From Flavobacteriales bacterium (lineage in GTDB: Bacteria > Bacteroidota > Bacteroidia > JANQJC01), in NCBI GenBank assembly GCA_028281825.1, contig JANQJC010000064.1, forward strand, positions 1 through 37,202: DNA of 37,202 nucleotides, written 5' to 3'. The position numbers were made by a program, and so were the translations under genes. The notes under the pieces are model-generated. The model saw only the letters and a list, made by a program, of their open reading frames with translations. It was not told where the DNA came from and searched no databases. This document shows, piece by piece, positions 5,517-35,270 of this stretch. Every line of letters starts with the position of its first letter. Position 1 is the stretch's first letter.

Positions 5517-5912
5517 TTGGAGAAGAAGCTGAGAAAAGTGATGTTTGTGGATGACGATTACTATGTGACTGAATTCCACAAAATGTTGGTACAACAAACC
5601 AATATGGCCGATGAAGCTTTGTTTTATAATAATGGTAAAAAAGCTTTGAAGTATTTAGCAGGTTTATCGCTTGAAGAATTTCCTGAACTTATATTGATTG
5701 ATGTAAACATGCCTGAGATTGATGGGCATGAGTTTGTGAATAGACTGGGCAGTGTAGCTAATTACACTAGTGATAAAACAATTGTAGCTTTTCTCACTTC
5801 ATCAAAAGACATCAGGGATGTGATAAGGGCTGATGAAAACAACGTAGAGTTTTACTACTGGAAACCTCTTGATAAAGAGGGGATTGAGAAAATAATGAAA
5901 GACTGTTTTTGA
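5517..5912 (+). CDS. CheY-like single-domain response regulator
   Basis: 131 aa receiver domain with no output domain. Acidic pocket residues Asp12-Asp14 (VDDDY), phosphoacceptor Asp62 (IDVNMPEIDG), Thr/Ser94-95 and Lys116 (WKP) are all present. The start is a TTG: the first in-frame ATG, at 5541, would remove the first beta strand, so TTG is preferred despite being non-standard. The insertion-containing, Rcp1-like layout is typical of regulators paired with PAS histidine kinases, and the next gene, 67 bp downstream on the same strand, is such a kinase. It probably passes phosphoryl groups to or from that kinase. Confidence 0.85.
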   Translation: MEKKLRKVMFVDDDYYVTEFHKMLVQQTNMADEALFYNNGKKALKYLAGLSLEEFPELILIDVNMPEIDGHEFVNRLGSVANYTSDKTIVAFLTSSKDIRDVIRADENNVEFYYWKPLDKEGIEKIMKDCF

Positions 5913-5979: not shown

Positions 5980-7860
5980 ATGCCGAATAACAAATACGCG
6001 ATTTTTGATAAGGTGATAGAAGGCGTTCAGGTAATTGCACCTGATTTCACCTACCTATACGTAAACGAAACCCTTACCAAACACGGTAAATACAGCAAAA
6101 AAGAGCTTTTGGGATTTACCATGATGGAAAAATACCCTGATATAGAGAATACTGATGTATTTGAGTATATCAAACGCTGCATGGAATCAGGAAAAGCCCA
6201 CCAAACGGTAAATGAGTTTGACTTTCCTGATGGTTCTAAAGGCTACCTTGAATTGAGAATGCAAAAAGTAGATGATGGAGTTCTTGTTTTGTCATACGAT
6301 ATAACAAATATTAAGCGAGCACAAAAGTTGTTTGAAAATACCAATAGAGAGCTGGAAAAAAGAGTGAAGCTACGCACCGAAGAATTGAGAAATAGTGAAG
6401 AAAAGTTTCAATTAGCTGTGGACGGTACAAGTGCCGGTATTTGGGATTGGTATGATATGAGTGATGATGAAAAGTGGTGGTGGTCTGAGCAGTTTTATAA
6501 CATGTTGGGTTTTGAGTATAAGGAGATACCAGCAGTAAGGCAAAATTTCAGGGAATTGGTTCATCCTGATGATTTACAAGCAACATTAGATGCAATTGAA
6601 AAGCATTACACTAAGAAAGAAGAATTTGAGGTAGAGTACAGACTGAGAACCAAATCTGGTGCTTATAGGTGGTTTTTAGGTAATGCACAAGCCAAATGGG
6701 ATGAAAATGGCAAGCCCATACGTTTGGTAGGCACCATTATTGACATACATGAGCGGAAGGTAGCTAAGCAGAGGCTGGGTGAAAGCAATGAAAGATTTCA
6801 GCTGGCAGTAAAAGGTACAAGTGCGGGTGTCTGGGATTGGATAAACGTAAATAGCGATGAAGAGTGGTGGTCACCAAAGTTTTATGAACTACTTGGATAT
6901 GAAAATGGTGAGGTTGATGCTACGCTAAAAAACTTTGCTGAAATGTTGCACCCAGATGATAAAGAACAAACTTTTAAAGTGCTCGAAGACCATTTCGCTG
7001 GGAAAGGAAAATTTGAAGTGGAATACCGCCTGAAGACAAAGTCAGGGAAATACAAATGGTTCTTGGGAAGTGGACAAGCCCGCTGGGATGCGCAAGGCAA
7101 ACCCACAAAAATGGTTGGAACCATAGTTGACATTAATGAAAGGAAAAAAGCTGAAAAATTGCTGAATCAGCGTTCAAAGGAATTAGAAGAGAAAAACAAA
7201 GAGTTACAAGAGTTTGTGTATGTTGCTTCCCATGACCTGCAAGAACCCGTAAGAACGATTGCTAGTTTCGTCAATATGTTCTCGGAGATGTACGAAAATA
7301 AAGTGGACAAAGAAGGAAAGAAAATATTGAAGTTTATCAAGGGAGCAACCCAACGTTCACAAGACTTAATTGTTGACCTTTTGGATTATAGTAGGATAGG
7401 AAACAATAAGTTAAGGGAAAAAGTGAAGTTGGATGAAACTGTAAAACAAGCCATTGACGACCTTAATGCTAAGATAAAAGAAAAGGGTGCCAAAATAGAA
7501 CTAACCAAAATGCCCGAAATTAATGGCTTGAAGACTGAGCTTCGTCTTTTGTTTCAAAACCTGATTAGTAATGCTATCAAGTTTAGCAGGCCCGACCGGC
7601 AGCCATTGATTTCAATAAATGCCGAAAGTGGCAGCGGCCACTGGCAATTCGCCATTAAGGACAATGGCATTGGGTTTGACCCCCAGCACAACGAAAAGAT
7701 ATTCGTGGTATTCAGACGCTTGATTAGTAGACAAGAGTATGAAGGTACAGGCATAGGTTTGGCACAGTGCAAGCGCATAGTAGAGTTGCACGGCGGCAAA
7801 ATATGGGCAGACTCAAAAAAGGGAGAGGGCAGTACTTTTTATTTTACCCTACCCACTTAA
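5980..7860 (+). CDS. triple-PAS sensor histidine kinase
   Basis: 626 aa, apparently soluble: no signal peptide or transmembrane helix. Order: PAS 1 (~1-112), a coiled coil (~113-140), PAS_3-type domain (~141-262), a second, closely related PAS_3 domain (~271-393), a coiled coil (~393-410), HisKA with phosphoacceptor His418 in ASHDLQEP, and HATPase_c with the N box around Asn531, G1 DNGIGF (561-566) and G2 GTGIGL (589-594). The two PAS_3 domains look like an internal tandem duplication, sharing phrases such as FQLAV-GTSAG-WDW and FEVEYRL-TKSG. It is predicted to autophosphorylate in response to a small cytosolic ligand or redox signal and to work with the receiver protein encoded just upstream. 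Confidence 0.9.
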   Translation: MPNNKYAIFDKVIEGVQVIAPDFTYLYVNETLTKHGKYSKKELLGFTMMEKYPDIENTDVFEYIKRCMESGKAHQTVNEFDFPDGSKGYLELRMQKVDDGVLVLSYDITNIKRAQKLFENTNRELEKRVKLRTEELRNSEEKFQLAVDGTSAGIWDWYDMSDDEKWWWSEQFYNMLGFEYKEIPAVRQNFRELVHPDDLQATLDAIEKHYTKKEEFEVEYRLRTKSGAYRWFLGNAQAKWDENGKPIRLVGTIIDIHERKVAKQRLGESNERFQLAVKGTSAGVWDWINVNSDEEWWSPKFYELLGYENGEVDATLKNFAEMLHPDDKEQTFKVLEDHFAGKGKFEVEYRLKTKSGKYKWFLGSGQARWDAQGKPTKMVGTIVDINERKKAEKLLNQRSKELEEKNKELQEFVYVASHDLQEPVRTIASFVNMFSEMYENKVDKEGKKILKFIKGATQRSQDLIVDLLDYSRIGNNKLREKVKLDETVKQAIDDLNAKIKEKGAKIELTKMPEINGLKTELRLLFQNLISNAIKFSRPDRQPLISINAESGSGHWQFAIKDNGIGFDPQHNEKIFVVFRRLISRQEYEGTGIGLAQCKRIVELHGGKIWADSKKGEGSTFYFTLPT

Positions 7861-7881: not shown

Positions 7882-9012
7882 TCAGCTAACTACGAAATAC
7901 ATCTCTATTTGACCTTTGCCTCTCACATCTATTTTGCCTCTGTGTGTGCAGCTAAACCGGTCTTTAACCAATTCATAAGTAGTTCCTGAGATATTCACTT
8001 TACCCTCTTCACCTGAACTCTCTATTCGGGCTGCTATGTTTACTGCGTCACCCCACACATCGTAAGCAAACTTGCGCTTACCAATTACCCCGGCTACTAG
8101 TTCACCGGTGTGCACACCAATCCTTATTTCCCAGGGTGTTTTTCCTTCCGTCTGGCGTTTCTGGTTCCATTCATCAGTCCAGCGGCTTATTTCGCATGCG
8201 GCAGTCACGGCATCAATAGGGTTGGTGTTGTTGGCTACAGGTAGTCCACCAGCACACATATAAGCATCACCTATAGTCTTTATCTTTTCCAACTGGTGTT
8301 TGTCGCATATCTCATCAAAAGCCGTGAAACATTCATTCAGGGTTTCCACTAATTCTTGCGGTGATATCTCTGATGCAGCTTTGGTAAACGCTTTAAAATC
8401 TGTGAAGAGTACGCTTACCATATCATAGTGCTTGGGAGAAGATACCCCACTCTTTATCAGTTCTTCAGCAGTTTCATTGGGTAATATGTTTAGGAGCAAC
8501 TCTTCACTTTTTTCCTTTTCTTGTCTTAGCTCAACGGTGCGTTCTTCTACAAGGGCTTCCAACTCTCTGTTGTGGCGTTCAAGTAGTCTGTTCTGCACTT
8601 CCAGTTGCTTGTCCTGATAAAAGCTTTTTATCGCTTCTCTCACTGTTAATATTAGGTCTGTACCTTCCCAGGGTTTACCAATATACCTGTATAGGTTAGC
8701 TTGATTTACTGCATCAGTAACGGCCTCAAGGTCAGATTGGCCTGTAAGCAATATCTTAAAAGATTTAGGTGATAAGTGATGTACTTTGGTCAGTAACTGG
8801 TGACCCTTAAGCCCAGGCATCAATTGGTCTGATATCACAACGGGAATATCCACACCATCCTGCAAAAACTCTTCAATAAGCTCCAAGGCTTCTTCGCCAC
8901 TCTCAGCAAACTCCAGTATATATTCATTACCAAAGTCTCTACTTAGCTGCGATTGCAAACCATTGAGTACAACGCGTTCGTCGTCTACACAAAGTATAAC
9001 GGCATTTTCCAT
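7882..9012 (-). CDS. response regulator - class III adenylate cyclase fusion
   Basis: 376 aa. Residues 1-125 are a receiver domain (Asp10/Asp11, phosphoacceptor Asp62, Thr90, Lys113). Residues ~135-170 are a coiled coil leading into a cyclase transducer element (SEELLLNILP), and ~195-376 are a class III cyclase domain. Metal-binding Asp205 and Asp249, Lys245 and Asp318 (the pair that selects adenine) and Asn325/Arg329 (transition state) are present, so cAMP synthesis is the predicted activity. It is the last gene of a tight operon: the preceding receiver gene stops 2 bp before this ATG. Phosphorylation by the kinase encoded at 9404-10978 would be expected to control cyclase activity. Confidence 0.9.
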   Translation of the reverse strand: MENAVILCVDDERVVLNGLQSQLSRDFGNEYILEFAESGEEALELIEEFLQDGVDIPVVISDQLMPGLKGHQLLTKVHHLSPKSFKILLTGQSDLEAVTDAVNQANLYRYIGKPWEGTDLILTVREAIKSFYQDKQLEVQNRLLERHNRELEALVEERTVELRQEKEKSEELLLNILPNETAEELIKSGVSSPKHYDMVSVLFTDFKAFTKAASEISPQELVETLNECFTAFDEICDKHQLEKIKTIGDAYMCAGGLPVANNTNPIDAVTAACEISRWTDEWNQKRQTEGKTPWEIRIGVHTGELVAGVIGKRKFAYDVWGDAVNIAARIESSGEEGKVNISGTTYELVKDRFSCTHRGKIDVRGKGQIEMYFVVS

Positions 9013-9014
9013 TA

Positions 9015-9407
9015 TCAGGATTCGGTTATTAAACTAATAAGGTCTTTTTCATTCCAAGGCTTGAAAATGCACTTTATTTTACCCTTGGTATCTTCTTCAA
9101 TGTTCTTCAATACCTTATTGTCCACATGGCCAGTGAGCAAAATGGTTTTAACGTTGCCCACCTTTTCCCTAACTTCTTTCAACAATTCATCACCTTTCAT
9201 CCCTGGCATTAGCCAATCAGATATTACTACATATATCACTTCATCATTCTCGCTTCTCAAGTCTTCTATTATCTCAAGTGCTTCTTCAGCCGATTCAGCA
9301 AACTCGTAATGGTAGGTATTACCAAAGTTTCTTGTAAGTTGTGAGTTTAGGCTATCCAAAACCATTTTTTCGTCATCAACACAAACTATATTCAGTATCT
9401 GTTTCAT
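9015..9407 (-). CDS. single-domain response regulator
   Basis: 130 aa receiver with Asp11/Asp12, phosphoacceptor Asp64 (ISDWLMPG), Thr92 and Lys117 (FKPW). It has no output domain. It is clearly paralogous to the receiver half of the downstream cyclase (shared CVDDE, NSQLTR/QSQLSR and FGNxY-EFAES-EEALE), pointing to tandem duplication. The ATG overlaps the stop of the upstream kinase gene by 4 bp (ATGA), which indicates translational coupling. It may act as a phosphate sink or shuttle that competes with the receiver-cyclase for the same kinase. Confidence 0.88.
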   Translation of the reverse strand: MKQILNIVCVDDEKMVLDSLNSQLTRNFGNTYHYEFAESAEEALEIIEDLRSENDEVIYVVISDWLMPGMKGDELLKEVREKVGNVKTILLTGHVDNKVLKNIEEDTKGKIKCIFKPWNEKDLISLITES

Positions 9408-10978
9408 GATATTGTATTATTAATGGGGAGTTTTACATAAAATGTAGTACCAACACCCTCGGTCGTTTCAAAAGATATTTTGGCTGAATGGTCATCCAAT
9501 ATTCGCTTGATGATATCCAGTCCTAATCCGGTCCCTTCACCAGATACCTTAGTGGTAAAGAAGGGGTTAAATATTTTTTGCTGTATTTCTTTAGGGATAC
9601 CTTTTCCAGTATCCTGGATACTAACTACTATATAACCACTCTTTTGCGTTACTCCAATTGTAAGGGTCCCTGCGTTATCCATAGCTTGTACAGCATTCAC
9701 AATTAGGTTAGTCCACACCTGGTTCAATTGGTCAGGAAAAACCATCACTTCAGGCACATCTTCATAGTTCTTTATCACATTTACACCTTGCTTCAGGCGG
9801 TTGTGATAAATGGTGAGTACCGTTTCAATGTTCTCTTTGATGTTGGTCGCTTCAGGTTCATCACTTCCTGAAGTATACAAGTAGGTCTTTAGTGCTTTCA
9901 CTATTCGTGAAGCCTTTTCAACTGCAAGTTTAATCGTCTCATTGTTTTTCTGCTGGTTGAGTAGGTTATACACTATCATTACCAGCCCTTCAAATTGAGG
10001 CAGTTTGGCCAGTGCTTCCATTTGCGGGGTAGTGTCATACATACCTACTTGTACCAACCTATCCGCCAAAAAACGGGCATTTTTAACCTTCATTTTCTCC
10101 AGTTTCTCCTTAAGTTGTTTCCTCTTTTCCCGTTCTTCTTTGGTAGATAAAGGTTGCCCACTTGGGCTAACCGAAGTGAGGAATTCAACAAACAAATCCT
10201 TGTCTTCTTCCTTCATCTCCTTAAGCATCATAGGCAGTTTGGCAATTGCCTCGTAGTAGGCTATGGATGACTCTTCGGCAGAAGATTTAATGGCGCTTAA
10301 GGGTGTATTTACCTCATGCGCTACTCCTGCTGATATCTGACCTAATACAGCCAGTTTTTCTGAGTTCATCAATTTTGTATAGGTGGTTTTTAGCTTCTCC
10401 ATGTTGGTATTGTTCATGATGGTAAAATATAGCACTAGGGCAAACACAATACCCGAAACACACAGTATATTAACTACTAGGAAAACCAGAGACACATTTG
10501 GCTTAACCCCCATATTGAAGTATTGAAAAAAATAGCCATCCAATAAAAGGGAGATAATTGTAAGCGCTACAAAAGCAGATAACCATAATAAAGACGACTT
10601 TGCGTTTTGATAAGAAACGGACGAGGTTAAAGCGAGTATTGACCAAAGCATGACTCCACCCGATACCGCAAAGCCACCCAAAAACCATTGCAAGAGAAAA
10701 GGGAGCAATAGGCTGATAGAGGTCTGTAGATTGCGGCATATCACAAAATTTTTGGTCCTGTCAAAAAAGAAGAAGTTGATTATAGTTATGATAGTGTACC
10801 CATAAGGGATAATTGAAGGTAGTGGATAGTTGAATGCCATAAGTAAAGTGCCCCAAAGCAATCCACCCATGCTCATGGCCAGCCCCTGGTATACCAGGAA
10901 TTGCTTTCTAAGTACCAGGTTGTCATCATCATTCGGCTTAATGCCTATGCGTGATATATTGGCTAATATTTCTTTCAT
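9404..10978 (-). CDS. membrane sensor histidine kinase with an expanded DHp domain
   Basis: 524 aa. About six transmembrane helices within residues 30-187 form a membrane-embedded sensor without a large periplasmic domain. The phosphoacceptor is His221 (VAHEVNTPLSAI). The second DHp helix seems to start only near residue 346, leaving an insertion of about 100 charged, helical residues (~240-345) where a short loop is normal. HATPase_c motifs follow: Asn428 (N box), DTGKGIP (456-462) and GTGLGL (482-487). It is the first gene of the kinase/receiver/receiver-cyclase operon, overlapping the next by ATGA. Its likely role is to control cAMP production through the two receivers. Confidence 0.9.
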   Translation of the reverse strand: MKEILANISRIGIKPNDDDNLVLRKQFLVYQGLAMSMGGLLWGTLLMAFNYPLPSIIPYGYTIITIINFFFFDRTKNFVICRNLQTSISLLLPFLLQWFLGGFAVSGGVMLWSILALTSSVSYQNAKSSLLWLSAFVALTIISLLLDGYFFQYFNMGVKPNVSLVFLVVNILCVSGIVFALVLYFTIMNNTNMEKLKTTYTKLMNSEKLAVLGQISAGVAHEVNTPLSAIKSSAEESSIAYYEAIAKLPMMLKEMKEEDKDLFVEFLTSVSPSGQPLSTKEEREKRKQLKEKLEKMKVKNARFLADRLVQVGMYDTTPQMEALAKLPQFEGLVMIVYNLLNQQKNNETIKLAVEKASRIVKALKTYLYTSGSDEPEATNIKENIETVLTIYHNRLKQGVNVIKNYEDVPEVMVFPDQLNQVWTNLIVNAVQAMDNAGTLTIGVTQKSGYIVVSIQDTGKGIPKEIQQKIFNPFFTTKVSGEGTGLGLDIIKRILDDHSAKISFETTEGVGTTFYVKLPINNTIS

Positions 10979-11148: not shown

Positions 11149-11742
11149 TCAATACTCTTTTTTGAGCAGCCTGCTCTTTATTCTTGACAGGGTAACGGGC
11201 GTTACCCCAAAATAAGAGGCGAGATACTTTTGTGGTATGCGTTGCAGTAAATCGGGGTATCGTTCACGGAAACGAGCAAAGCGCTCCTCATTAGTCAGTA
11301 TAGTATAGTCTTCCATTCGCTCTATACTTTCCATCAGGTTTTGGGTGAGTGCTCCATTATAAACCTGCATGATGTTCATATTGCTTAGTGCCAACTCTTT
11401 AAACTTTCTGGTATCTAGCATGCCCACCATTCCATCTTCAAGCACATCAATAAATTCTGTTGCAGGTTTACCTTGAAAAATACAGGCATAGGCTGCCGCA
11501 TTTTGTCCTTCTGCTGAAAATAAAAGTGTCTTATCTTCACCGCTAGATGTGATTACATAATTTCTAAGAATGCCTTTCATCACGCGAAAGTGATGATAAT
11601 TGATATCGCCAGCCCTTACTAGCACTTCACCCTGCGATACAGGTCTTAGCTCAACAAGGCTAAAGAAGGTCATTATATCTTTGTCTGTTAAAAAAGGGTA
11701 TTTTGCTTTTAGTTGGTCAATTGGAGGAACTGCTTCGTTCAT
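11149..11742 (-). CDS. Crp/Fnr family transcriptional regulator
   Basis: 197 aa. A cyclic-nucleotide-binding-type beta roll spans about residues 25-115, with the dimer helix at ~120-148 and a C-terminal helix-turn-helix at ~168-192 (IPQKYLASYFGVTPVTLSRI), the classic Bacteroidota Crp/Fnr sequence. No cysteine cluster for an Fnr iron-sulfur centre is present. The region equivalent to the phosphate-binding cassette reads GKPATEF, so the Arg-Ser/Thr pair that contacts cAMP in E. coli Crp is absent. cAMP binding is therefore doubtful despite the adjacent cyclase operon. It lies on the same strand, 170 bp upstream of the kinase operon, and may regulate it. Confidence 0.88.
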   Translation of the reverse strand: MNEAVPPIDQLKAKYPFLTDKDIMTFFSLVELRPVSQGEVLVRAGDINYHHFRVMKGILRNYVITSSGEDKTLLFSAEGQNAAAYACIFQGKPATEFIDVLEDGMVGMLDTRKFKELALSNMNIMQVYNGALTQNLMESIERMEDYTILTNEERFARFRERYPDLLQRIPQKYLASYFGVTPVTLSRIKSRLLKKEY

Positions 11743-13935: not shown

Positions 13936-14877
13936 ATGAAAACTGCAATAAAAGTAATATTCGCCTTGGTATTGATGATGCCATTGCTTGTTTCAGCACA
14001 AGCTCCTGATATGTTCAACTATCAAGGGGTGGCACGCGATAATGTGGGTAATAGCCTTACCAACCAAAATATTGGTTTGCAAATAGACATCAGGCAAACT
14101 ACACCAGGTGGTACGGTGGTTTTCAGTGAAACACATGCAGCTACCACCAATACTTTTGGCTTGTTCAATATTGAGATAGGAGGGGGAACTCCCTTGGTTG
14201 CCACCCTTTCAGCTATCGACTGGTCTAATGGGCCTTATTTTGTAGAAGTAAGCATGGACGAAACTGGTGGAACCAATTACGTGAGTATGGGCGTAACCCA
14301 GCTTTTATCGGTTCCTTATGCTTTGTATGCCAAAGCTAGTGGAACAGCAGGCCCTACAGGAGCAGATGGTGCAACAGGTGTAACGGGTGCAGACGGTGCA
14401 ACTGGTCCCACAGGTGAAGCAGGACCAACGGGTACTGAAGGAGTTACTGGCGCTGATGGCGCTACAGGCGCTACAGGGCCAACTGGCCCGACAGGAGCGG
14501 ATGGCCTTAACGGTGCCACAGGCCCTACAGGCCCAACTACTTTGGTAGGGCCTACCTTTATCGACCCAATTGTGTTGACAACAACAGACAACATAGGTTG
14601 GACAGATGTAGATGTATCAACCCACGTGCCCACTGGAACAAGTGTTGTGATACTTGATGCTGAAGCTCGTGAAAATGAAAACGATTCCAATGCTGAAGTA
14701 CGGAAGAATGGGGATACCCATTCTGGGTACTATCTTATCCGCGCAAGGGCTGAAGGTAATTTTGATGATGTAGGGGTTTACAACCAAATCATGTGTCCGG
14801 TTGATGGTAACTACATCTTTGAGTACAGGGCTGATAACTTTGATGCCTTGACATTGAGAATTATCGGGTACTATTAA
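13936..14877 (+). CDS. collagen-like triple-helix repeat surface protein
   Basis: 313 aa. Signal peptide at 1-22. Residues ~25-133 are a Bacteroidota-specific N-terminal domain ([10 protein letters not shown], then FGLFNIEIG) common in proteins with collagen or tail-fibre-like stalks. Residues 136-201 are 22 uninterrupted Gly-X-Y triplets, mostly GPT, GAT, GAD and GVT, with Thr favoured at Y instead of hydroxyproline, as in bacterial collagens. Residues ~205-313 are a compact beta-rich C-terminal domain that may act as a trimerisation head (C1q/TNF-like in position, not proven by sequence). No T9SS domain is seen, so it may be periplasmic or outer-membrane-associated. The repeat is codon-repetitive and a likely site of length variation. 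Confidence 0.85.
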
Positions 14878-14885
14878 TTGGTGAT

Positions 14886-16796
14886 TTAGGCTTTAGCTTC
14901 CACAAAATACATTTCAATTTCGCCCTTGCCTTTAGCCTGTACTTTACCTCTTGACTCACAGTTAAACCGGCCATTCACCAACTCATAAGTAGTTTGTGAG
15001 ATGTTTACCTTACCCACTTCGCCGCTGCTTTCCATTCGGCTGGCAGTGTTTACGGTATCCCCCCAAATATCATACTGGAATTTCTTGATACCCACAATGC
15101 CGGCTACTACCGGACCTGTGTGAATGCCTATACGTATTTCAAAGCCATTATCTCCTTTTCTTTCTTTGTATTTCAACATCCAATCGCGCATTTCAAGGGC
15201 GGCATTTACTACATCTTGAGCATTGGTTTTATTGGGCACAGGCAAGCCACCTGCCGCCATGTAGGCATCACCAATAGTCTTTATCTTCTCAATGTTATAT
15301 TTGTTGATAATCTCATCAAATGCCTTGAAGCACTCATCGATGGCACTTACCAACTCAGTAGGGGAGAGTTTCTCTGATATCTGCGTAAAACCTTTAAAGT
15401 CAGTAAACAGAACGGTTACTTCATCAAACTGGCGGGCATCGGCATAGCCTTTTTGTTTGAGCTCCTTAGCGGTTTCTTCGGGCAAAATGTTTAACAGTAA
15501 TTCATCGCTTCTCTTCTTGCCTTTGTATATGGAAAAAGCCAAAGCAACCAGTAATAACAACCCTACAGCTGCACCCAATAAACCTATACGCTGCTTTTTG
15601 GTTTCAGCTTTGAGGATAGCCTCCCGTCCCACAAATGCCAAACTATCAGCTAAAGCTTTCTTTTCAAACTGATAACCAAGTTCCTGGCGATTAATTTCTT
15701 TTTCCCTGTCAATATCTACTAATGAATCTTTTAGTAATTCTTCATACTCATGATACTTTAATGCAGAATCTAGTTTTCCCAAGCCTTTATAGGCTACATA
15801 TAAGCAATTGCAGCCATCTATTTCTGAAATCAGTTCCTTACTTTCCCTGGCTCCTTCATAGGCTATCTTACACCAAGTTAAGGCTTGTTTATAGCGCCCC
15901 AGTTGCGAGTTAACACCTCCCAGACCTATTTGGCTTGAATTAAGGGATGATATCCAACCTATTGTCTCTTTCTTTTCAAGTGCCTTTGTGAAATAGATAA
16001 GTGCACTATCCAAGTTATTGAGATAATTCCAATGAGTAAGGCCTATGTTATGATAGGCAGCAGCAATATATTTTTGATTGATTGACGAGTCTTGCCATGC
16101 CAGGATTTCGCGATAATATTTAAGTGATAACTGAGCGTCAATAGTATCACTGTTTTTACGGCCATAAAGGTTACCCATGCTAATCAGGTAACTTGGTATC
16201 CGTTCAGTGAAACCATTATCCTCTACTATCCTTAACCCCTTGTTATAGTATTCACGCGCTTTTTCAAAATCGCCCATTTCCACGAAACAAACACCGATGT
16301 TCTTTACCACATACTCTATATCCTCTGTGTCTCCCAACTCTTCAAATAGCTTTAAGGCTTCCAAATAATTTTCTAAAGCCCTGGTATTATTATCCATTAA
16401 AGAAAACATTGTACCCGTTGCACTATATGTGGCAGCCAGAGCTGTTATATCATTTGCCTTTTTTGCTATTTCAAGGCCTTCTTCAAGTAGGTCGAGGGCG
16501 GCTATTGGGTCCCCTTTCGAACCCATTACGCGAGCCATCATAATTAGAGCGGTGCATCTATATTGCCCGTTTTTTTTGTTACTTGATAATCTTAGGAACT
16601 CTTTTGCTACCCTCTCTGCAGAATCATTGCTAAATCGCATATAGTGCTTGATAAGCTCCTCCGCCACTTCAATTCTTGTGGTTTCAGAAAGCTGCTGGTC
16701 ATACCATGTTTGCTTTAGGCTATCCATATCAGTCACAGAGCCAAACACTTGAACATAGACCAATAGATAAACTATTAAGGGTATAATATTTTTCAT
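14886..16796 (-). CDS. TPR - transmembrane - class III adenylate cyclase
   Basis: 636 aa. A signal peptide or signal anchor at the N-terminus, then TPR-like helical repeats over ~30-380 that would lie in the periplasm, a coiled-coil approach, one transmembrane helix (~403-425), a transducer element (DELLLNILPEE, ~431) and a class III cyclase domain to the end. Metal Asp466 and Asp510, adenine-specifying Lys506 and Asp576, and Asn583/Arg587 are present, so it should make cAMP. This layout suggests protein-protein sensing outside the inner membrane coupled to cytoplasmic cAMP production. It lies 86 bp downstream of another cyclase gene on the same strand, and the two catalytic domains share an almost identical DNA tract. 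Confidence 0.9.
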   Translation of the reverse strand: MKNIIPLIVYLLVYVQVFGSVTDMDSLKQTWYDQQLSETTRIEVAEELIKHYMRFSNDSAERVAKEFLRLSSNKKNGQYRCTALIMMARVMGSKGDPIAALDLLEEGLEIAKKANDITALAATYSATGTMFSLMDNNTRALENYLEALKLFEELGDTEDIEYVVKNIGVCFVEMGDFEKAREYYNKGLRIVEDNGFTERIPSYLISMGNLYGRKNSDTIDAQLSLKYYREILAWQDSSINQKYIAAAYHNIGLTHWNYLNNLDSALIYFTKALEKKETIGWISSLNSSQIGLGGVNSQLGRYKQALTWCKIAYEGARESKELISEIDGCNCLYVAYKGLGKLDSALKYHEYEELLKDSLVDIDREKEINRQELGYQFEKKALADSLAFVGREAILKAETKKQRIGLLGAAVGLLLLVALAFSIYKGKKRSDELLLNILPEETAKELKQKGYADARQFDEVTVLFTDFKGFTQISEKLSPTELVSAIDECFKAFDEIINKYNIEKIKTIGDAYMAAGGLPVPNKTNAQDVVNAALEMRDWMLKYKERKGDNGFEIRIGIHTGPVVAGIVGIKKFQYDIWGDTVNTASRMESSGEVGKVNISQTTYELVNGRFNCESRGKVQAKGKGEIEMYFVEAKA

Positions 16797-16882: not shown

Positions 16883-18094
16883 TTAGCCTTTCTCCACAAA
16901 ATACATCTCAATCTCGCCCTTGCCTTTAGCCTGTACTTTACCTCTTGACTCGCAGTTAAACCGGTCATTCACCAACTCATAAGTAGTTTGTGAGATGTTT
17001 ACCTTACCCACCTCGCCGCTGCTTTCCATTCGGCTGGCAGTGTTTACGGTATCCCCCCAAATATCATACTGGAATTTCTTGACACCAACAATACCAGCTA
17101 CTACTGAGCCTGTATGCACTCCAATACGTATTTGGAAACTATTCTCACCCTTTCTCTCTTTGTATTTCAGCATCCAATCGCGCATTTCAAGGGCGGCATT
17201 CACAACGTCAACTGCATTGGTAGTGTTGGGCACTGGCAGGCCCCCAGCAGCCATGTAGGCATCACCTATGGTTTTTATTTTTTCTATGCCATACTTCTCC
17301 ATAATGTGGTCAAAAGCCTTGAAACATTCATTTATTTCAGTCACCAATTCTTTGGGAGATAACTCCTCAGACAAGGCCGTGAAATCCTGAAAATCTGTGA
17401 ATATTACTGTTACCTTTTCAAAGTGTTTGGCATCAGCATGGCCTTTTTCCTTCAATTCTCTGGCTGTTTCTTCAGGTAATATATTCAGCAGAAGTTCCTC
17501 ACTCTTAGCTTTTTCTTCTTCAAGTTTTTTAAGGGCTTTGGTTTTGGCATTATCAAAGTTGAGCACTACAATAAAAAGTATAATTGTAAAAGCCACCTGG
17601 GCTATATAGTGGGCTTTTGTAACATTTTCAACTGGTATTTCATTTTTTATCTCAAAACCAGTCTCTTGCAAATAAAAAGTTATGGTGAGAATAGCTATCG
17701 AAACAAAAATCCAGGGTATGGCATTTTTTTTGTCCAAAATCAATAGTGTTACCAACGGAATGACACTCACCCAAAGCACTACCTCTGAGGTGAGCCCACC
17801 CGTGGTAAATATGCCGTGGGTAAAGTTAAGCATGGTACAAGCCATGCCTAAATGAACAAGGGTTTTATACTCAGCCAGGTTAAACTTTAGCATTAAACCA
17901 ATACTAAACGCCACCGCAGCACCTATACTCACGGCAATGCCCATTGAAGGTATTTGAAGAAAATAGCTTTGGGCGAGTGCTAATAAGGAGTATGTGATGT
18001 AAACATATATAATGATAATCCAAAGGCGAACTTTTCTCAGGACTTCACCATCAGCAAAGTAACGTTTAGGTATAAACCAATCAATGAATCGCAT
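16883..18094 (-). CDS. six-TM membrane class III adenylate cyclase
   Basis: 403 aa. Six predicted transmembrane helices within residues 24-180 form a MASE-like membrane sensor, followed by a short coiled coil, a transducer element (SEELLLNILPEE) and a class III cyclase domain (~225-403). Catalytic set: Asp234, Asp278, Lys274, Asp344, Asn351 and Arg355, the adenylate cyclase pattern. The C-terminal ~180 residues are nearly the same as those of the TPR-cyclase encoded 86 bp downstream, while the sensor halves are unrelated, so a shared catalytic module has been joined to different sensors. The two genes are probably cotranscribed. Confidence 0.9.
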   Translation of the reverse strand: MRFIDWFIPKRYFADGEVLRKVRLWIIIIYVYITYSLLALAQSYFLQIPSMGIAVSIGAAVAFSIGLMLKFNLAEYKTLVHLGMACTMLNFTHGIFTTGGLTSEVVLWVSVIPLVTLLILDKKNAIPWIFVSIAILTITFYLQETGFEIKNEIPVENVTKAHYIAQVAFTIILFIVVLNFDNAKTKALKKLEEEKAKSEELLLNILPEETARELKEKGHADAKHFEKVTVIFTDFQDFTALSEELSPKELVTEINECFKAFDHIMEKYGIEKIKTIGDAYMAAGGLPVPNTTNAVDVVNAALEMRDWMLKYKERKGENSFQIRIGVHTGSVVAGIVGVKKFQYDIWGDTVNTASRMESSGEVGKVNISQTTYELVNDRFNCESRGKVQAKGKGEIEMYFVEKG

Positions 18095-27560: not shown

Positions 27561-27941
27561 TTATTGGCCTCTTAGGTTGTCAATCTTGTCACGAATAGCA
27601 TTCCAAAGGTCAATTCCCGTTGCTTCGCTGATGTTCTCTATGTTGCTCTTAAATTCTACCAGACATATATAGCCACCCGTTATATTTACAAAAGGCAGCG
27701 TCCCGAAAACATTTTCCATTCCATGGGCCAGCAATACGGCTATCATGTAAAGTATCATTTTAGTTATTGTCTTGCCCATTGCTTTTGAGTAGATGGGCTT
27801 TTTAATCAGCTTGTCACGCCATACGGCAGTCACAACATCCGATATCAATAAGCAACCAATCAATATTAACATAGGGGCGAGGGGGGTAATAAATGCAACC
27901 AGGTAAGCTACAAATAACTCTATGAATTCAGCTTTTTTCAT
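27561..27941 (-). CDS. phage holin family protein
   Basis: 126 aa from the ATG at 27941; the longer frame overlaps the preceding gene more and adds a polar, domain-free leader. Three hydrophobic helices and the KPIYSKAMGKTITKMILYMIAVLLA segment resemble the phage_holin_4 / toxin-secretion holin family. In a complete phage it would permeabilise the inner membrane to release endolysin, but no endolysin gene is seen nearby. The ATG lies 14 nt inside the upstream gene, which suggests translational coupling. Confidence 0.72.
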   Translation of the reverse strand: MKKAEFIELFVAYLVAFITPLAPMLILIGCLLISDVVTAVWRDKLIKKPIYSKAMGKTITKMILYMIAVLLAHGMENVFGTLPFVNITGGYICLVEFKSNIENISEATGIDLWNAIRDKIDNLRGQ

Positions 27942-28209
27942 TAATTCTAACTGATTTATCGCTTGATGGTTTTTCTTCTCGTTTCTTGCCGAAAGATTTG
28001 AGTTCTGCCACTTTGTGCAAGTATTTTGGTGCAAAAACAGCGGTGAGCATTAGCACATCAAACATGATAAAGTCTGCATTAAGGCCACAGCTATTGCTTA
28101 TCACATAGTATAGGTTGAAAACCATGAAGAATATTAGCAGTAGGAAACTGTTTAGCCTGGTGCTACTTTTGCGCCCTGGTTGTTCTTCGAAAAATCCTGT
28201 CTTTTCCAT
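27928..28209 (-). CDS. two-TM holin-like phage membrane protein
   Basis: 93 aa from the ATG at 28209, 1 bp after the stop of the fibre gene. The N-terminus FFEEQPGRKSSTRLNSF is typical of small phage membrane proteins with a Ser-Ser-x-Arg-Leu motif before the first helix. Two helices (about 20-40 and 48-65) are followed by a basic, polar tail. It is likely a holin, antiholin or membrane anchor; the exact role is not known. It overlaps the next gene by 14 nt. Confidence 0.65.
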   Translation of the reverse strand: MEKTGFFEEQPGRKSSTRLNSFLLLIFFMVFNLYYVISNSCGLNADFIMFDVLMLTAVFAPKYLHKVAELKSFGKKREEKPSSDKSVRINEKS

Positions 28210-28210
28210 C

Positions 28211-30550
28211 TTAAAATGATACTTTACGGTAAACAATATTTAAGGAGATATCGCTGTCTCCGTCTGTTGGGTTGCTCATCATTGTGGTTAGAACTATTCC
28301 ATCATTTTCTACTATCTGTGTATCAGCTGCATCAAATGGAGTGATGTATGACCAGCCTTTCACTACCCTGCTTGTGTTTGAAGAAAGAAGCTGGACGTTT
28401 TGTAACCAATTAGAATTGGCATTTTCGCATTTTATTGTTAGCCCAGTGTCTGTGCCGTAGGCAGTGGTATTAAAGTTTATACTTCCTACTATGCTGATAA
28501 TATCATAATAATACCCAACACCAGGAGCAGGTAATAAAGCTTGAGGCCGAGTGTTACAAACCAGAATACTATCACTAGAGATGGTAACGGTTGTATCTTT
28601 AATAATGGAGCCTGTGAAGTTAAGAGTACCATTACCATCATTGTACAAAATACCTTCAACATCACTGTCAGGCCATTCATATCTATTGCCCCGCAAGTTG
28701 AGATATTTTATATATTCGGGTAAGGCAAATTCATATTTATTAGATTGAGCCTCATAGCCAAGAGCAACTGAACTGTCTTGAGCGTATGATATATATCCAA
28801 TAGCACTAGCAAACTTAGTGGCCAAAGCACTTCCTCCCATAGTAATACTGAAACTGTCTGCTACAGCATTATATCCTATAGCAGATGCATCATAAAAGGC
28901 GGTGGCTTTGCGGCCTAAAGCTATTGAGTTTTTCTCTGCATCTGTGCTATCTCCAATCGCAATGCTATGGTTCATATTAGTAAGTGAACTATTCGCACCA
29001 ACACCAATAGCAATGTTATTGCTGTCGTTTGACATGTATTCTCCTGCATCTGCACCAATAAGTATATTATTGATTCCATCATATAAATTGTATCCACTAG
29101 ACTCTCCAATCACAACATTGTATTCTCCAGTATTTATCATGTATCCAGTGTTGTTACCCAACAATATGTTATTATTTCCTCCTCCAGAAGTCATTAAAGG
29201 GTTGAGTAAGTTAAAGTTCTCGTCTAAAACTACTGAGCTATCTGGCTCACTTACCCCTCCAGATACTGTGCTCCAAGTAAGGTTGCTACTGCCATCTGTT
29301 GTTAGGACTTGGCCTGAAGAGCCGTTGTAAGATGGAAAGGTGTAAGATTGAAACCCATAACCAAATTCAATTGTACCAAATTTGTTGATACGGATAAAGG
29401 CAGATGGTTCGCCATCAGTACTATCATTAGCTTGCAACAATATTCTAGTATCATCAATCTGAATTGAGTTTTCAGAATAATCACTCCCCGATGATTCATT
29501 AAAAGTATGGGTCATTCCTAATCCAAATTCGCTAATATTAAAGGCATCAACTGTCATATTGTATGGTTCATATAGCTTGAAAAGGCTAGCAGAGTTTTGA
29601 CAACACTCGGCTTCGTCACCAAAGGAGGAAATGCCGAACGAATAATCTGTTTCGTCTTGGGTTGATATGTTGAAGCTAGACCTTGAGTTGATATAGAAAG
29701 TACTATCTGAGGTTATATAGATTGTTGTGTCTGTTGAAATAAAAAAATTGCTCGAATTGATATCAATATTGTTTATGGCCTTAATATCAAAATCTCCTAA
29801 TGACTGGATATCTAAAGTGCTATCGGCTACCTTTGAGGTAAAACCGTGATCATTCAGGCTTACGGGATCAGTAAAGCCTAAGAATAGCCTGCAACTGTCG
29901 GCTCCATATCCGGTGAGGTCCATGAAACCAGCAATACTATGAAATCCATAAGAGGATCTATACAAACCAGTCATAGGAACTCCCCAAATATCATTATTCA
30001 GTAATACCATTTGGGTGTCTGCTTTCATAAGGACTGAGTGACTGGCACTATCCCGCACATAACCATTATCAGATACCAAGTTTCCGTTGGGGCTGAAGTA
30101 TAGTACCTCGTTTATGTGATTCGTACTGCCTTCAATGGTATCACCCCACACGGCACTAGTTCCTGAGCCACTACTCACATCACCGGTAACCAATAACTTT
30201 TTCCATTCAGTTCCAGTGTATAATTCAAATCTGTTTGAGCTAGTATTAAATATCATCAATCCAGTAGGAGGTGAGGATATAGCATCTCTTTGAGTTTCAT
30301 CCATCTTGGAGATGAGTACACCACCATTAGTGCTGCTAACTTCAAATGCCGTTCCTGGAGTAAGGGTGTCCGCTCCGATTACAGCGAAACCACCTGATAC
30401 AAAAAGCGAATCTCTTACTTTGGTGTTACCTTTTATGTAAAGATTGTTGTTGTAGTTTCCATAAGTTTGGGCATGGTTATCATTGGTGAAAATCAGGACT
30501 ACCAATAAAATGAGTAGCCCATTTAAGCTTGTCTTTATTATTGCTTTCAT
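28211..30550 (-). CDS. secreted YadA-head-like fibre protein inside the phage cassette
   Basis: 779 aa. Residues 1-28 form a convincing Sec signal peptide (basic start, LLILLVVLIF core, NDNHAQ end), which is unusual for a virion gene. Residues ~75-120 carry the Bacteroidota surface-fibre motif (VLISKMDETQRDAISSPPTG, then FELYTGTEWKKL). Residues ~459-603 hold ~10-15-residue repeats with NSIAIG, NSIALG and SVALG cores, typical of the left-handed beta-roll in YadA/trimeric autotransporter heads. The C-terminal ~125 residues read like a phage structural or receptor-binding domain (VLTTMMSNPTDGDSDISLNIVYR). No YadA membrane anchor or T9SS sorting domain is visible. It lies 31 bp after the preceding phage gene and 1 bp before the next. 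Confidence 0.75.
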   Translation of the reverse strand: MKAIIKTSLNGLLILLVVLIFTNDNHAQTYGNYNNNLYIKGNTKVRDSLFVSGGFAVIGADTLTPGTAFEVSSTNGGVLISKMDETQRDAISSPPTGLMIFNTSSNRFELYTGTEWKKLLVTGDVSSGSGTSAVWGDTIEGSTNHINEVLYFSPNGNLVSDNGYVRDSASHSVLMKADTQMVLLNNDIWGVPMTGLYRSSYGFHSIAGFMDLTGYGADSCRLFLGFTDPVSLNDHGFTSKVADSTLDIQSLGDFDIKAINNIDINSSNFFISTDTTIYITSDSTFYINSRSSFNISTQDETDYSFGISSFGDEAECCQNSASLFKLYEPYNMTVDAFNISEFGLGMTHTFNESSGSDYSENSIQIDDTRILLQANDSTDGEPSAFIRINKFGTIEFGYGFQSYTFPSYNGSSGQVLTTDGSSNLTWSTVSGGVSEPDSSVVLDENFNLLNPLMTSGGGNNNILLGNNTGYMINTGEYNVVIGESSGYNLYDGINNILIGADAGEYMSNDSNNIAIGVGANSSLTNMNHSIAIGDSTDAEKNSIALGRKATAFYDASAIGYNAVADSFSITMGGSALATKFASAIGYISYAQDSSVALGYEAQSNKYEFALPEYIKYLNLRGNRYEWPDSDVEGILYNDGNGTLNFTGSIIKDTTVTISSDSILVCNTRPQALLPAPGVGYYYDIISIVGSINFNTTAYGTDTGLTIKCENANSNWLQNVQLLSSNTSRVVKGWSYITPFDAADTQIVENDGIVLTTMMSNPTDGDSDISLNIVYRKVSF

Positions 30551-30581
30551 TGCTGTTGTTGATTAAATGATTTGAGGGTTT

Positions 30582-31160
30582 TTAATAAGCCATTATGTTA
30601 ATCTCTATTCCTGCCACATTTTCATTGGCATGGACTTTTATTTTATTCAGTTCATCACTTGTGTCCCGCTCCCATAGGAAGTCACTTTTTTGACCATCTT
30701 CCATGAAGGCCACAATGCGAGCTTCTTTGCCAAGGTTGTGGGTAATCTCATTTTCACCTTCTGTAAGGTCAGCTTCAACTGTGAAGGTTTTCGGGACTTT
30801 GATTAAGTCAACGGGATTGGGCAAAATGTTGATTAGACTTCGGGTTTGCCAATAAAGCCCTTCTTCTGGGATGAAACCGGTAAATGCTACTGGCTCGCCT
30901 TCTTCTTCATAGATGGCTTCCCAGGCTTTGCCTTCGTAGTAAGCATATCTCTTGGCTGGGTCATTGCTTTCTGCTAAGTATTCTGCAGCAGGGTTGTAAG
31001 GCTCCATGTTGAGAGGGTCGAAATAATCGTTCAAGGCTTCATAGAGCTTTATAAAGTTGCCATCCAACTCTTCGTATGTGAGGGTGGCTCCCTTGGTGAT
31101 GAGGGTGCCATGTATGGCTTCTCTCAACACCAGGTTTTCTAGTTCAGTAAGTGCACTCAT
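30582..31160 (-). CDS. small virion-type protein
   Basis: 192 aa, starting within the stop of the upstream gene (4-bp ATGA overlap). The N-terminal half (~1-110) is helical with acidic and Tyr-rich stretches. The C-terminal ~75 residues (FTVEADLTEGENEITHNLGK, FMEDGQKSDFLWE) resemble a beta-rich domain found in phage tail-fibre or virion proteins. No catalytic motif is visible. Translational coupling to DUF6712 suggests it binds near the head-tail connector. Confidence 0.6.
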   Translation of the reverse strand: MSALTELENLVLREAIHGTLITKGATLTYEELDGNFIKLYEALNDYFDPLNMEPYNPAAEYLAESNDPAKRYAYYEGKAWEAIYEEEGEPVAFTGFIPEEGLYWQTRSLINILPNPVDLIKVPKTFTVEADLTEGENEITHNLGKEARIVAFMEDGQKSDFLWERDTSDELNKIKVHANENVAGIEINIMAY

Positions 31161-31666
31161 CCTATTGAATTGATTTTAACTGTTCCTGGATTGGTTTGAA
31201 GGCTGCACTTAAAGAGGGGATAGGCACTAGCCATCCTTTCTAAGTAAAGCAGCATTTGATTTTCGTGGTGGCGGGCACCGCTTTTAGCTTGGTTGACCAT
31301 TGAGCTCAATTGCTCATTGTCTGGCCTTTCAGAGTTTTCAAGTATCTTTTTGGTAAAGCCTGAAGGTGTTGACGTAACTCCATTGTTCACTAAGAGGCGA
31401 ACATAGGTGTAGTAAACCAACACGGCTTTAGCGCCTTTAAACTCATAGGTGTTGCCCTTGTAGGTGTATTGCCCACCGAGCAAAAGGGTTTGGTATTGAG
31501 GTAGGGCAACGTTGTCCCTGAAGTCAATGTAAAGCTGCTCGCCTAAAACGGGTTTCAGGTCAAATTCTTCAGCTTCGTCAATGTGTGGGTCAAGGTCTTT
31601 GGCGGTGTTGATGTTGGCCGTTAAAAACTTGTATTCCCCGAAATCACTTAAGGTTATCAGGCTCAT
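31157..31666 (-). CDS. DUF6712 family head-tail connector-like protein
   Basis: 169 aa, full length for the family. The opening LITLSDFGEYKFLTANINTA and HIDEAEEFDLKPVLGEQLY are hallmarks of DUF6712, found in Bacteroidota phages and prophages next to the portal gene. By position it is the connector or head-completion protein that joins the portal ring to the tail or closes the capsid. It lies 25 bp after the portal gene. No tail genes follow, so it may serve only to close the head. Confidence 0.75.
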   Translation of the reverse strand: MSLITLSDFGEYKFLTANINTAKDLDPHIDEAEEFDLKPVLGEQLYIDFRDNVALPQYQTLLLGGQYTYKGNTYEFKGAKAVLVYYTYVRLLVNNGVTSTPSGFTKKILENSERPDNEQLSSMVNQAKSGARHHENQMLLYLERMASAYPLFKCSLQTNPGTVKINSIG

Positions 31667-31691
31667 CTGTTATTAGTTTTTTTGAGGGGTT

Positions 31692-32801
31692 TTATAAATT
31701 TTGATCTATGCTGAGAGTGGCAATCTTATAGTTCTCTGACGGGTTGGCATCGGGGAACAGGCTGAATAGCCTCTGGAATTGTTCCTCGATTACCATTCTC
31801 TCGTCAGACGTTTCCTCATTGTATTGTTTGATGGCTTCCATTCTCTCGCTGTTATCGCCCAGTTGGCCAGGGATGGATTTGAAAAGCACAGGCGGCAGGC
31901 CATAATTCATGCGGATGTTCTCCTGAACGCTGCTCTCATGGTATTCATACAGCCTGTCATTGTTTTGATGGCTGAAAGGTGTGATATCTGGCACTTGCTC
32001 ATCCAATTCTACTTCTGCCCAGAAGATTTTATTGAAGTTATCGGCGCCCTGGAATTCGGTTATCTTCTCAGCAAACTCACGGCGGGCTTCATCTGTTTCA
32101 AACTTACCTTTAGTTACCAAAAGGTGAGAAGCCATAAATCCGCTGGTGATATTGCGGTATTTGAAGAGCTTGATCTGGCTATCCACTTCTACATCCTCCA
32201 ACACGGGGTCGCAAGTACTGAGTGGGTAAACCATTTCTCCTTCGCTGCTGTACCAGAGTATCTGGCCTTTGTAGTTCTCAAAGCCCCCAGCGGCTTCTAC
32301 TTGTGCGGCAATTATCTCTGGGTCAGGATTGAAAACATCTATAAAGTCAATGTCATCAACCAGAATACGTTTTTTGCGGTGCATATCCCAATTGTCATAC
32401 ACGGCTACTTTTGAGATATAGCCTTGGTCGTCAGCTATGGCTAGGCGACAATACTTAAAAGGGATGTGCTGGGCTTCTACGGGCTCTAACTTGGCATTAT
32501 AGTTGACATGAATGGCGAAGCCATTGATGTAGCTATAATCCTTTGCTACCTGCCTCAAGAGATGATTGGCGGTTTGGCCTTTGGTGTTGATGATGGCCTG
32601 AGCGAAACCTTCGTCCTCAAAGCCCTGGCCTATAATGTATTTCTTAAGGCGCTCGATACATATACTTGCAGCACCACTGCCTGCCAATATATCCAGGATG
32701 CGCTGAGGGTAAAGGTTGTCGCGGTCATAGCTTTCAATGCCCAGGCGTTTATCTACGGCATATACCTTCCGCTTTTGAATTTTATCTAAGTTGATACGCA
32801 T
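31692..32801 (-). CDS. phage portal protein
   Basis: 369 aa, shorter than most portals (400-550 aa). Typical HK97/PBSX-type features: an N-terminal RDNLYPQRILDILAGSGAA, an interior DYSYINGFAIHVNYNA strand region, a mid YYSSEGEMVYPLSTCD-like stretch, HESSVQENIRMNYGLPPVLF and a C-terminal GQLGDNSERMEAIKQYNEET followed by a helical tail. It would form the dodecameric DNA gate of the capsid. It is downstream of the capsid gene, the reverse of the usual portal-protease-capsid order, and no terminase to drive it lies nearby. A REP-like repeat separates it from the upstream HhH gene. Confidence 0.83.
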   Translation of the reverse strand: MRINLDKIQKRKVYAVDKRLGIESYDRDNLYPQRILDILAGSGAASICIERLKKYIIGQGFEDEGFAQAIINTKGQTANHLLRQVAKDYSYINGFAIHVNYNAKLEPVEAQHIPFKYCRLAIADDQGYISKVAVYDNWDMHRKKRILVDDIDFIDVFNPDPEIIAAQVEAAGGFENYKGQILWYSSEGEMVYPLSTCDPVLEDVEVDSQIKLFKYRNITSGFMASHLLVTKGKFETDEARREFAEKITEFQGADNFNKIFWAEVELDEQVPDITPFSHQNNDRLYEYHESSVQENIRMNYGLPPVLFKSIPGQLGDNSERMEAIKQYNEETSDERMVIEEQFQRLFSLFPDANPSENYKIATLSIDQNL

Positions 32802-32855
32802 TGCTTTGTGTTAAGTGTTTTGTCGTATTCGTTGTGTTTTTTGGTGCTGTCCGTA

Positions 32856-32940
32856 TCATCATTGCCAGGAGGAACGACGAAGCAATCTCCTTTTATGATT
32901 ATTGAATTTGAGATTGCCACGCTACGCTCGCAATGACGGG
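32856..32940. repeat. REP-like imperfect palindrome between two phage genes
   Basis: An element of about 85 bp with inverted ends: TCATTGCC (32859-32866) against GCAATGAC (32930-32937), and GAAGCAATCTCC against GAGATTGCCAC. The CATTGCGAGCG / GCAATGACG theme is the widespread intergenic repeat seen in many bacterial chromosomes. Such repeats are normally chromosomal; its presence inside the cassette implies long residence there. A short ORF that reads through it is discounted. Confidence 0.65.
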
Positions 32941-32945
32941 TAGGG

Positions 32946-33500
32946 TTACTCACCAGCCGACAACCTCTCAGCGCTGGCTTTGCCAATACCTTTGATGGCG
33001 GTCAATTCTTCTACGCTCATGGTTTTGGCTTGCTGTGGGGTAATGCCCGCTTTGGCTAAGGCAGCCAGAACTTTTGCCGGAAGGCTCTCGCTCTTGGGTT
33101 CTTCTGTTGGTAGCGCATGGTCTTCGGGTTGTGGGTTCTGGCTGTCAAAGTCATCAAGCACCTGTTGTGGGTTTTCAAATAGTTTGGCATTATCGCGGCT
33201 GCGCTCTATCATTTGCATTACCACCTTATCAGTAAGGGTTGAATTGGTGTAATGCGTATGATTAAAGTAGAATAACGCGTTTTTGTTTTTAAGCTCGTAT
33301 TGTGTCATTTCGGGTTGTTTTTGGTTCAGTAATAATTCCAGTTCCATCACTGCTTCTTCGGCGCACAGGCTGCATCCCCTTTTGCGGGGGCGTTTGCCAG
33401 TAGTGAGATGATACACTTTACCCACTTCCTCAATCAAGGCTCGGCTATCGCCGGGGCGATTGCGCCATTTTTGGATAATATCTTTAACAAGTGCTTGCAT
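32946..33500 (-). CDS. helix-hairpin-helix protein of the phage cassette
   Basis: 184 aa. Residues ~1-60 are helical with one CxxC pair (Cys43 and Cys46, GCSLCAEEA), which could bind a metal if paired across subunits. Residues ~100-140 are acidic and Pro-rich (linker). Residues ~163-183 are a helix-hairpin-helix (EELTAIKGIGKASAERL), a sequence-nonspecific DNA-binding motif. It probably binds DNA at the capsid vertex or during packaging, a plausible partial substitute for missing packaging proteins (inference). The start is ATG. Confidence 0.6.
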   Translation of the reverse strand: MQALVKDIIQKWRNRPGDSRALIEEVGKVYHLTTGKRPRKRGCSLCAEEAVMELELLLNQKQPEMTQYELKNKNALFYFNHTHYTNSTLTDKVVMQMIERSRDNAKLFENPQQVLDDFDSQNPQPEDHALPTEEPKSESLPAKVLAALAKAGITPQQAKTMSVEELTAIKGIGKASAERLSAGE

Positions 33501-33569
33501 AGGTTCAAGAGGAAGAAGGAAAGGGCTTTTGAGGGCCCTATTCCTTCAGGTGGTTGGGTTGAGAAAGGT

Positions 33570-34151: not shown

Positions 34152-34175
34152 AATTTTTCTGTGTTTTTAGGTTGA

Positions 34176-35264: not shown

Positions 35265-35270
35265 TGTTTA

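Follow-up and report, generated by a model that had tools for sequence, protein, structure and literature searches.

A histidine kinase, a lone receiver and a receiver-cyclase form a conserved operon with cyclic AMP as its predicted output in a Flavobacteriales bacterium

In cyanobacteria, proteins of the CyaC type combine receiver, kinase and cyclase in one hybrid protein, and the solved cyclase domains 1wc0 and 1wc1 presumably belong to CyaC. Here we describe a system in which a class III cyclase is likewise tied to two-component domains, while kinase and cyclase are separate proteins. It is encoded in a 37,202-nucleotide stretch of DNA from a Flavobacteriales bacterium (contig JANQJC010000064.1; hereafter the window) by three genes, for a histidine kinase (HK), a lone receiver and a receiver fused to an adenylate cyclase (the receiver-cyclase). 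Other described systems resemble parts of it. The LvrA-LvrB pair of Leptospira, which are Rec-controlled histidine kinases, has a kinase feeding a receiver-effector via a coiled coil (PMC13269768); unlike this pair, the window has a cyclase as the effector and a separate lone receiver. In the HnoK/HnoS system of Shewanella with HnoB, HnoC and HnoD, the signal branches to several receivers, one of which modulates the second-messenger enzyme of another; its output is cyclic di-GMP rather than cyclic AMP (cAMP), and its modulator is a degenerate HD-GYP protein and not a lone receiver (PMC6335343). Single-domain response regulators, among them sinks, shuttles, DivK and MrrA (PMC5964349), are similarly receivers without an output that partner histidine kinases; those of the window's module lie beside both a kinase and an effector in distant phyla. 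Finally, serine/threonine kinase-histidine kinases of the HstK type occur in cyanobacteria, an example being Alr2258 (PMC2176072, whose available text is silent on downstream receivers).

The genes for HK (524 amino acids, 9404-10978), the lone receiver (130 amino acids, 9015-9407) and the receiver-cyclase (376 amino acids comprising a receiver, a long helix and a class III adenylate cyclase, 7882-9012) were delimited as open reading frames and assigned with Pfam. All three are on the minus strand and are transcribed in this order, the end of the HK gene overlapping the start of the lone receiver gene by 4 bp (9404-9407) and a gap of 2 bp (9013-9014) separating the stop of the latter from the start of the receiver-cyclase gene. 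They form one tight operon, just as an earlier note on this DNA, made from the sequence alone, had claimed; order and tight spacing are also kept in near relatives, which is beyond chance. The same note had one receiver free and the other fused to an adenylate cyclase, and this is confirmed by Pfam (Response_reg at E 1.9e-15 for the lone receiver; Response_reg at 2e-14 and Guanylate_cyc at 6.5e-56 for the receiver-cyclase) together with the adenylate-type residues of the active site. Its prediction of a phosphorelay with cAMP as the output is well supported by sequence as regards cAMP, while the word phosphorelay probably says too much. In HK, the lone receiver and the receiver-cyclase, Pfam gave no match to Hpt at E <= 0.001, unlinked partners not having been searched, so that we take the operon for a branched two-component system.

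The cyclase domain matches Guanylate_cyc with 189.3 bits against a cut-off of 21.9 and can be aligned with mammalian AC8 and AC9. The metal-binding aspartates D205 and D249, the pair K245 and D318, as well as N325 and R329 are all present. In mammalian cyclases the counterparts of K245 and D318 select adenine. Among 17 receiver-cyclases of the module K245, D205 and D249 are invariant while D318 varies, so that ATP is a fair prediction of the substrate in the window's clade and a less sure one for the cyanobacterial receiver-cyclases. With these residues the protein is a predicted active class III cyclase of the adenylate type, and cAMP is well supported as its predicted output. Neither receiver protein belongs to the NosR family (NF053512), as the receiver-cyclase scores 146.2 bits and the lone receiver 78.7 bits against a cut-off of 400, with matches confined to the receiver portion of the model.

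HK carries a HATPase_c domain (residues 415-519, E 1.7e-26) and a sub-threshold match to HisKA, which is restricted to residues 213-235 (21.0 bits against a cut-off of 26.9). The phosphohistidine H221 lies within the motif HEVNTP; across 56 aligned kinase cores H221, N424/N428, D456, G458 and G460, and G480, G482 and G484 are invariant. Having the phosphohistidine and the N, G1 and G2 boxes, HK is predicted to be a HisKA-type kinase. It falls outside the LvrB family (NF047466), for which it scores 79.7 bits where 500 are required. The kinase core is unusual in that the two helices of the hairpin are separated, in the alignment, by an insert at the hairpin tip. In the structure model, residues 1 to about 190 form long helices that look hydrophobic on inspection by eye; Pfam has no match for them at E <= 0.001. 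HK is presumably located in the membrane. When the model was compared with known folds, histidine-kinase ATPases came out on top (best Z 23.6, for ZraS, over residues 373-522), in matches that hardly probe the insert and the N-terminal part.

In order to follow the operon across bacteria, genomes of 84,980 species (one per species) were scanned with an alignment of five kinases. This gave at least 577 stretches; the top 80 were retained and correspond to 79 distinct loci, selected by the kinase alone (loci are numbered L below). We called a trio a kinase of HK's type, a lone receiver and a receiver-effector on the same strand with gaps of less than 800 bp. The three-gene order, whose conservation the earlier note had proposed as a check, is found in 40 of the 79 loci: 23 in Cyanobacteriota, nine in Bacteroidota, five in Pseudomonadota, and one each in Chloroflexota, Calditrichota and a SAR324 genome, with metagenome bins making up many of the records. 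In 19 of these 40 trios the lone receiver and receiver-effector genes overlap by exactly 4 bp. Besides, among the kinase genes of HK's type that have a next gene on the + strand, this gene is a lone receiver in 56 of 90 cases, compared with 1 of 17 for other HATPase genes of the same loci, and this sole control case is a fragment of a frame-broken kinase of HK's type. The effectors of the 40 trios contain cyclase (23), HATPase_c (14), HisKA (14), Hpt (2) and GGDEF (1) domains, the HATPase_c and HisKA cases being the ones that recall LvrB. The trio thus recurs in very distant bacteria with its output enzyme swapped, which suggests that the lone receiver is a permanent functional component rather than a duplicate left behind. 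At the cyanobacterial locus L118, a lone receiver and a receiver-cyclase lie downstream of a single protein that combines Pkinase, AAA, GAF, PAS, HisKA and HATPase domains; we read the domains of this protein as HstK-like. Its kinase core is 47% identical to that of HK, and this core and the downstream receivers are what it shares with the window, while the input half is wholly different.

Within the phylum of the window, an even sample of 296 genomes was screened by scoring the best five or six candidates per genome, which does not amount to a census, and 28 places were opened. The full trio was present in one of them (G192), another (G070) had a kinase and a receiver-cyclase, and the remaining places held related kinases that were paired with other receivers. 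In the sampled phylum the trio is not frequent. The window's genome is the sole member of its order among the genomes compared. L098, whose DNA is identical with that of the G192 place, has a pair of kinases, one of them with TPR repeats, ahead of a single lone receiver and a single receiver-cyclase. Tandem arrays of two or three kinases of HK's type ahead of a single lone receiver occur at L098, L119, L138, L147, L168, L170 and L174, as if several sensors shared one receiver pair. A further group of Bacteroidota loci (L074-L085 and L087) has the same kinase core behind an N-terminal cyclic-nucleotide-binding domain (six of six checked at E <= 0.001, four of them above the cut-off); two adjoining receiver proteins were checked in this group and both are fused to a thioredoxin-reductase-like enzyme, and further neighbouring receiver proteins have a similar length. 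No description of the three-gene module was found in the literature searched, from which most subscription journals are absent.

The two receivers of the window share 47% identity over 124 residues. The lone receiver has D11, D12, D64, T92 and K116, the phosphorylation residues are intact in both proteins, and both are predicted to be phosphorylatable receivers. Across the module, every one of the 55 lone receivers has D64 and K116 as well as T or S at position 92, and 54 of them have the acid pair; D64, T92, K116 and the acid pair are kept in 41 of 41 effector receivers. A first quick tree, built on 129 receivers, groups the 55 lone receivers with six lone receivers from other layouts (support 82), and no effector receiver falls inside. 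In a second tree, for which nine rows were removed, constraining 58 lone receivers together beat the free quick search by 12.6 log units (approximately unbiased test, p-AU 0.67). Conversely, forcing the lone and effector receivers of Bacteroidota together was 182 log units worse (p-AU 3e-73), so that a recent or local duplication of the cyclase's receiver is rejected. Both trees are quick ones, with few columns, many rows and many unresolved forks, and the groups were defined after the first tree. The lone receivers behave as one lineage, and the paralogy claimed by the earlier note holds for ancient paralogues but not for a local copy, as the two receivers belong to two lineages. In five trio relatives, conservation is highest for the lone receiver (77-81%), followed by the receiver-cyclase with 66-71% and the kinase with 62-64%.

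We then asked whether both receivers fit one kinase. The same-locus and covariation tests were run on 39 loci, namely the 40 trios and the window without L123 and L139. Helix alpha1 is a known specificity surface according to the available text of PMC2991266. Both receiver families have the alpha1 consensus VL.SL...L...FG in common, while their output faces differ. Over alpha1, the identity between the two receivers of the same locus is 0.525 as compared to 0.486 in within-phylum shuffles, and none of 2000 shuffles was as high; the four other receiver regions were equalled or exceeded in 150, 1897, 333 and 492 of 2000 shuffles, and the whole receiver in 8. The alpha1 excess persists when 21, 11 or 7 representatives are shuffled across phyla (0, 1 and 4 of 2000). 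The columns with z above 2.5 (21, 22, 26 and 29) are all in the alpha1 region, and position 22, at which the two receivers agree in 23 of 39 loci (0.59 versus 0.25, z 6.3), drives the match. We considered gene conversion as its source and saw no sign of it in the codons; where the residues agree, these are identical in 29 of 58 cases at positions 21, 22 and 26 and in 739 of 1571 at positions 31-130. On the kinase side, HK residues 232 and 233 are within the top eight columns associated with receiver positions 22 and 21. In EnvZ the phosphohistidine is H243. HK 232/233 (H+11 and H+12) are the equivalents of EnvZ L254/A255 (these residues after PMC2991266), and their covariation with receiver alpha1 would lend weak support to a direct fit. 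In the window's own genome, the lone-receiver model finds two places at E <= 1e-15, both within the operon (34 candidates scored), and there is one kinase of HK's type at E <= 1e-50. Together with the same-locus match in alpha1, this supports the prediction of one kinase with two cognate receivers.

Altogether, we consider it rather probable that the operon encodes a branched two-component system, in which HK acts on both receivers, the cyclase's receiver leads to cAMP and the lone receiver sets the threshold and duration of the signal. In such a system, the membrane-bound HK would phosphorylate its two cognate receivers. The phosphorylated receiver of the receiver-cyclase would rearrange the long helix behind it and so switch the dimeric cyclase, and the signal would leave as cAMP. 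The lone receiver would dock on the same HK through the same alpha1 surface and, having no output domain, would most likely share or drain phosphoryl groups, thereby shaping threshold and duration of the cAMP signal. The competitor or timer role that the earlier note gave to the free receiver is plausible. On the alpha4-beta5-alpha5 face, 4 of 35 columns are at least 90% conserved in the lone receivers as compared to 15 of 35 in the effector receivers, and a less conserved output face would fit a sink.

Several observations weigh against this proposal. The strict trio rule fails in 39 of the 79 loci, of which 14 have the kinase and lone receiver only, four have the kinase and a receiver-effector without a called lone receiver, and 21 are arranged in other ways. 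Some of the latter are contig ends or broken frames and three (L109, L112 and L136) have such receivers in a different order, yet several have no receiver nearby. L116 was counted among the loci with no lone receiver, although one is encoded in its gap, 73% identical to that of L118; L122, L149 and L169 were likewise left out of the trio count. With 21 representatives, a weaker same-locus excess appears in the alpha2 (37 of 2000) and alpha4 (57 of 2000) regions, and with 2 representatives alpha1 is beyond judgement (982 of 2000). Phylogeny confounds the associations between HK and receiver columns, and many columns are high besides HK 232/233. Finally, alpha4-beta5 of the lone receiver is remodelled in the window's clade, which is compatible with a sink and also with a new partner.

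The rival that survives best is that the phosphorylated lone receiver is no sink and acts in a DivK-like manner as an allosteric feedback factor on HK, perhaps at the tip insert. The tip region (residues 236-348 of HK) has 113 residues in 72 of 97 aligned cores, with a range of 111-117, and R283 within it is invariant among the 97; a length so nearly constant and this arginine give the region a specific job, probably. It is mostly helical in the structure model, and Pfam gave no family for HK residues 236-414 at E <= 0.001. The strongest association of receiver position 22 is with HK residue 307, inside this region, and the lone receiver stays beside this kinase type in many phyla; allostery of the DivK type is described in the available text of PMC5964349. 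The column association is subject to the phylogenetic confounding mentioned above, and we regard feedback as possible while leaning against it. Alternatively, the lone receiver could have an unlinked effector or relay phosphate to another kinase or Hpt protein as a MrrA-like hub, which would give the system two outputs. Lone receivers elsewhere can act as hubs or bind effectors (PMC5964349), and the loci with several kinases before one lone receiver agree with such wiring, but the alpha4-beta5-alpha5 face of the lone receivers, less conserved than that of the effector receivers, speaks against it, making a second output unlikely. The cyclase might also escape HK, being constitutive or under another kinase: outputs and layouts vary, which points to flexible wiring, and L105 has the kinase and a receiver-cyclase with no lone receiver between them. 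Set against the tight operon and the matched alpha1 helices, we find this quite improbable. That the lone receiver is a functionless, decaying duplicate of the cyclase's receiver, as adjacency and 47% identity might indicate, is hardly credible in view of the tree test, its being the best conserved of the three proteins in five trio relatives, and the presence of the phospho-aspartate and the lysine in all 55 lone receivers.

Beyond the branched system proposed for the window, we put forward tentatively, as an idea that we ourselves hold in some doubt, that the kinase core with its tip insert and the lone receiver are an ancient, self-contained signal-processing cassette. It would be the constant task of the lone receiver to shape what leaves the kinase, whether it serves as a dedicated sink or binds to the insert. 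Around this core, the sensors would have been swapped, and so would the effectors (adenylate cyclase, histidine kinase, diguanylate cyclase).

The surroundings of the operon contain further genes of related kinds. A Crp/Fnr-like gene lies 170 bp upstream of HK (11149-11742, minus strand). Its Pfam cyclic-nucleotide-binding (cNMP) domain scores 29.3 bits against a cut-off of 27.5, and the phosphate-binding stretch of this domain looks degenerate by eye when set against the phosphate-binding motif of cNMP domains. With a domain barely above the cut-off and this degenerate-looking stretch, we rejected the gene as a candidate reader of cAMP. Relatives of it were searched for in 15 close loci, namely 14 of the 79 and L068, which is the same locus as L098. 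One is directly upstream of the kinase in L102 (L102:5279-5854; 42% identity, E 3e-43) and another about 3.2 kb upstream of it in L096 (L096:3-485); no match was found in the 13 other close loci searched, some of which have little upstream sequence. Among the seven cNMP proteins of the window's own genome, both relatives match the Crp/Fnr-like protein best, that of L096 by a small margin. In view of these two upstream relatives the gene may belong to the neighbourhood, as a possible associate of the operon. Elsewhere in the window's genome, L175 encodes a receiver with a cNMP-binding domain and a helix-turn-helix-like end, a candidate cAMP-linked regulator.

Three of the genome's seven matches to class III cyclases fall inside the window within 11 kb, all on the minus strand. 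Besides the receiver-cyclase, they are a cyclase linked to TPR repeats (14886-16796, minus) and a cyclase with an unnamed, membrane-like N-terminal part (16883-18094, minus). A membrane sensor common to HK and the latter was considered and is unsupported (BLASTP E 0.11); an upstream cyclase in L096 shows a weak 22% match to the first part of HK. On the other side, the genes for a second receiver (5517-5912, plus strand) and a PAS-rich histidine kinase (5980-7860, plus strand) head toward the cyclase operon and end 21 bp away from it; the receiver tree places this receiver at a great distance from the two of the operon. The window also encodes a protein with collagen-like repeats (13936-14877) and a prophage-like region (about 27561-36395) with holin and Clp-protease domains found by Pfam and other phage-like genes recognised by eye.

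Lone receivers are common in bacteria and their purpose is usually worked out one case at a time. Here, a single lineage of lone receivers remains associated with a single kinase type in several phyla, even as the outputs differ, so that one set of purified proteins could be used to test for timing, buffering or feedback on the kinase. For the Bacteroidota, the module would link a sensor to cAMP by a defined path.

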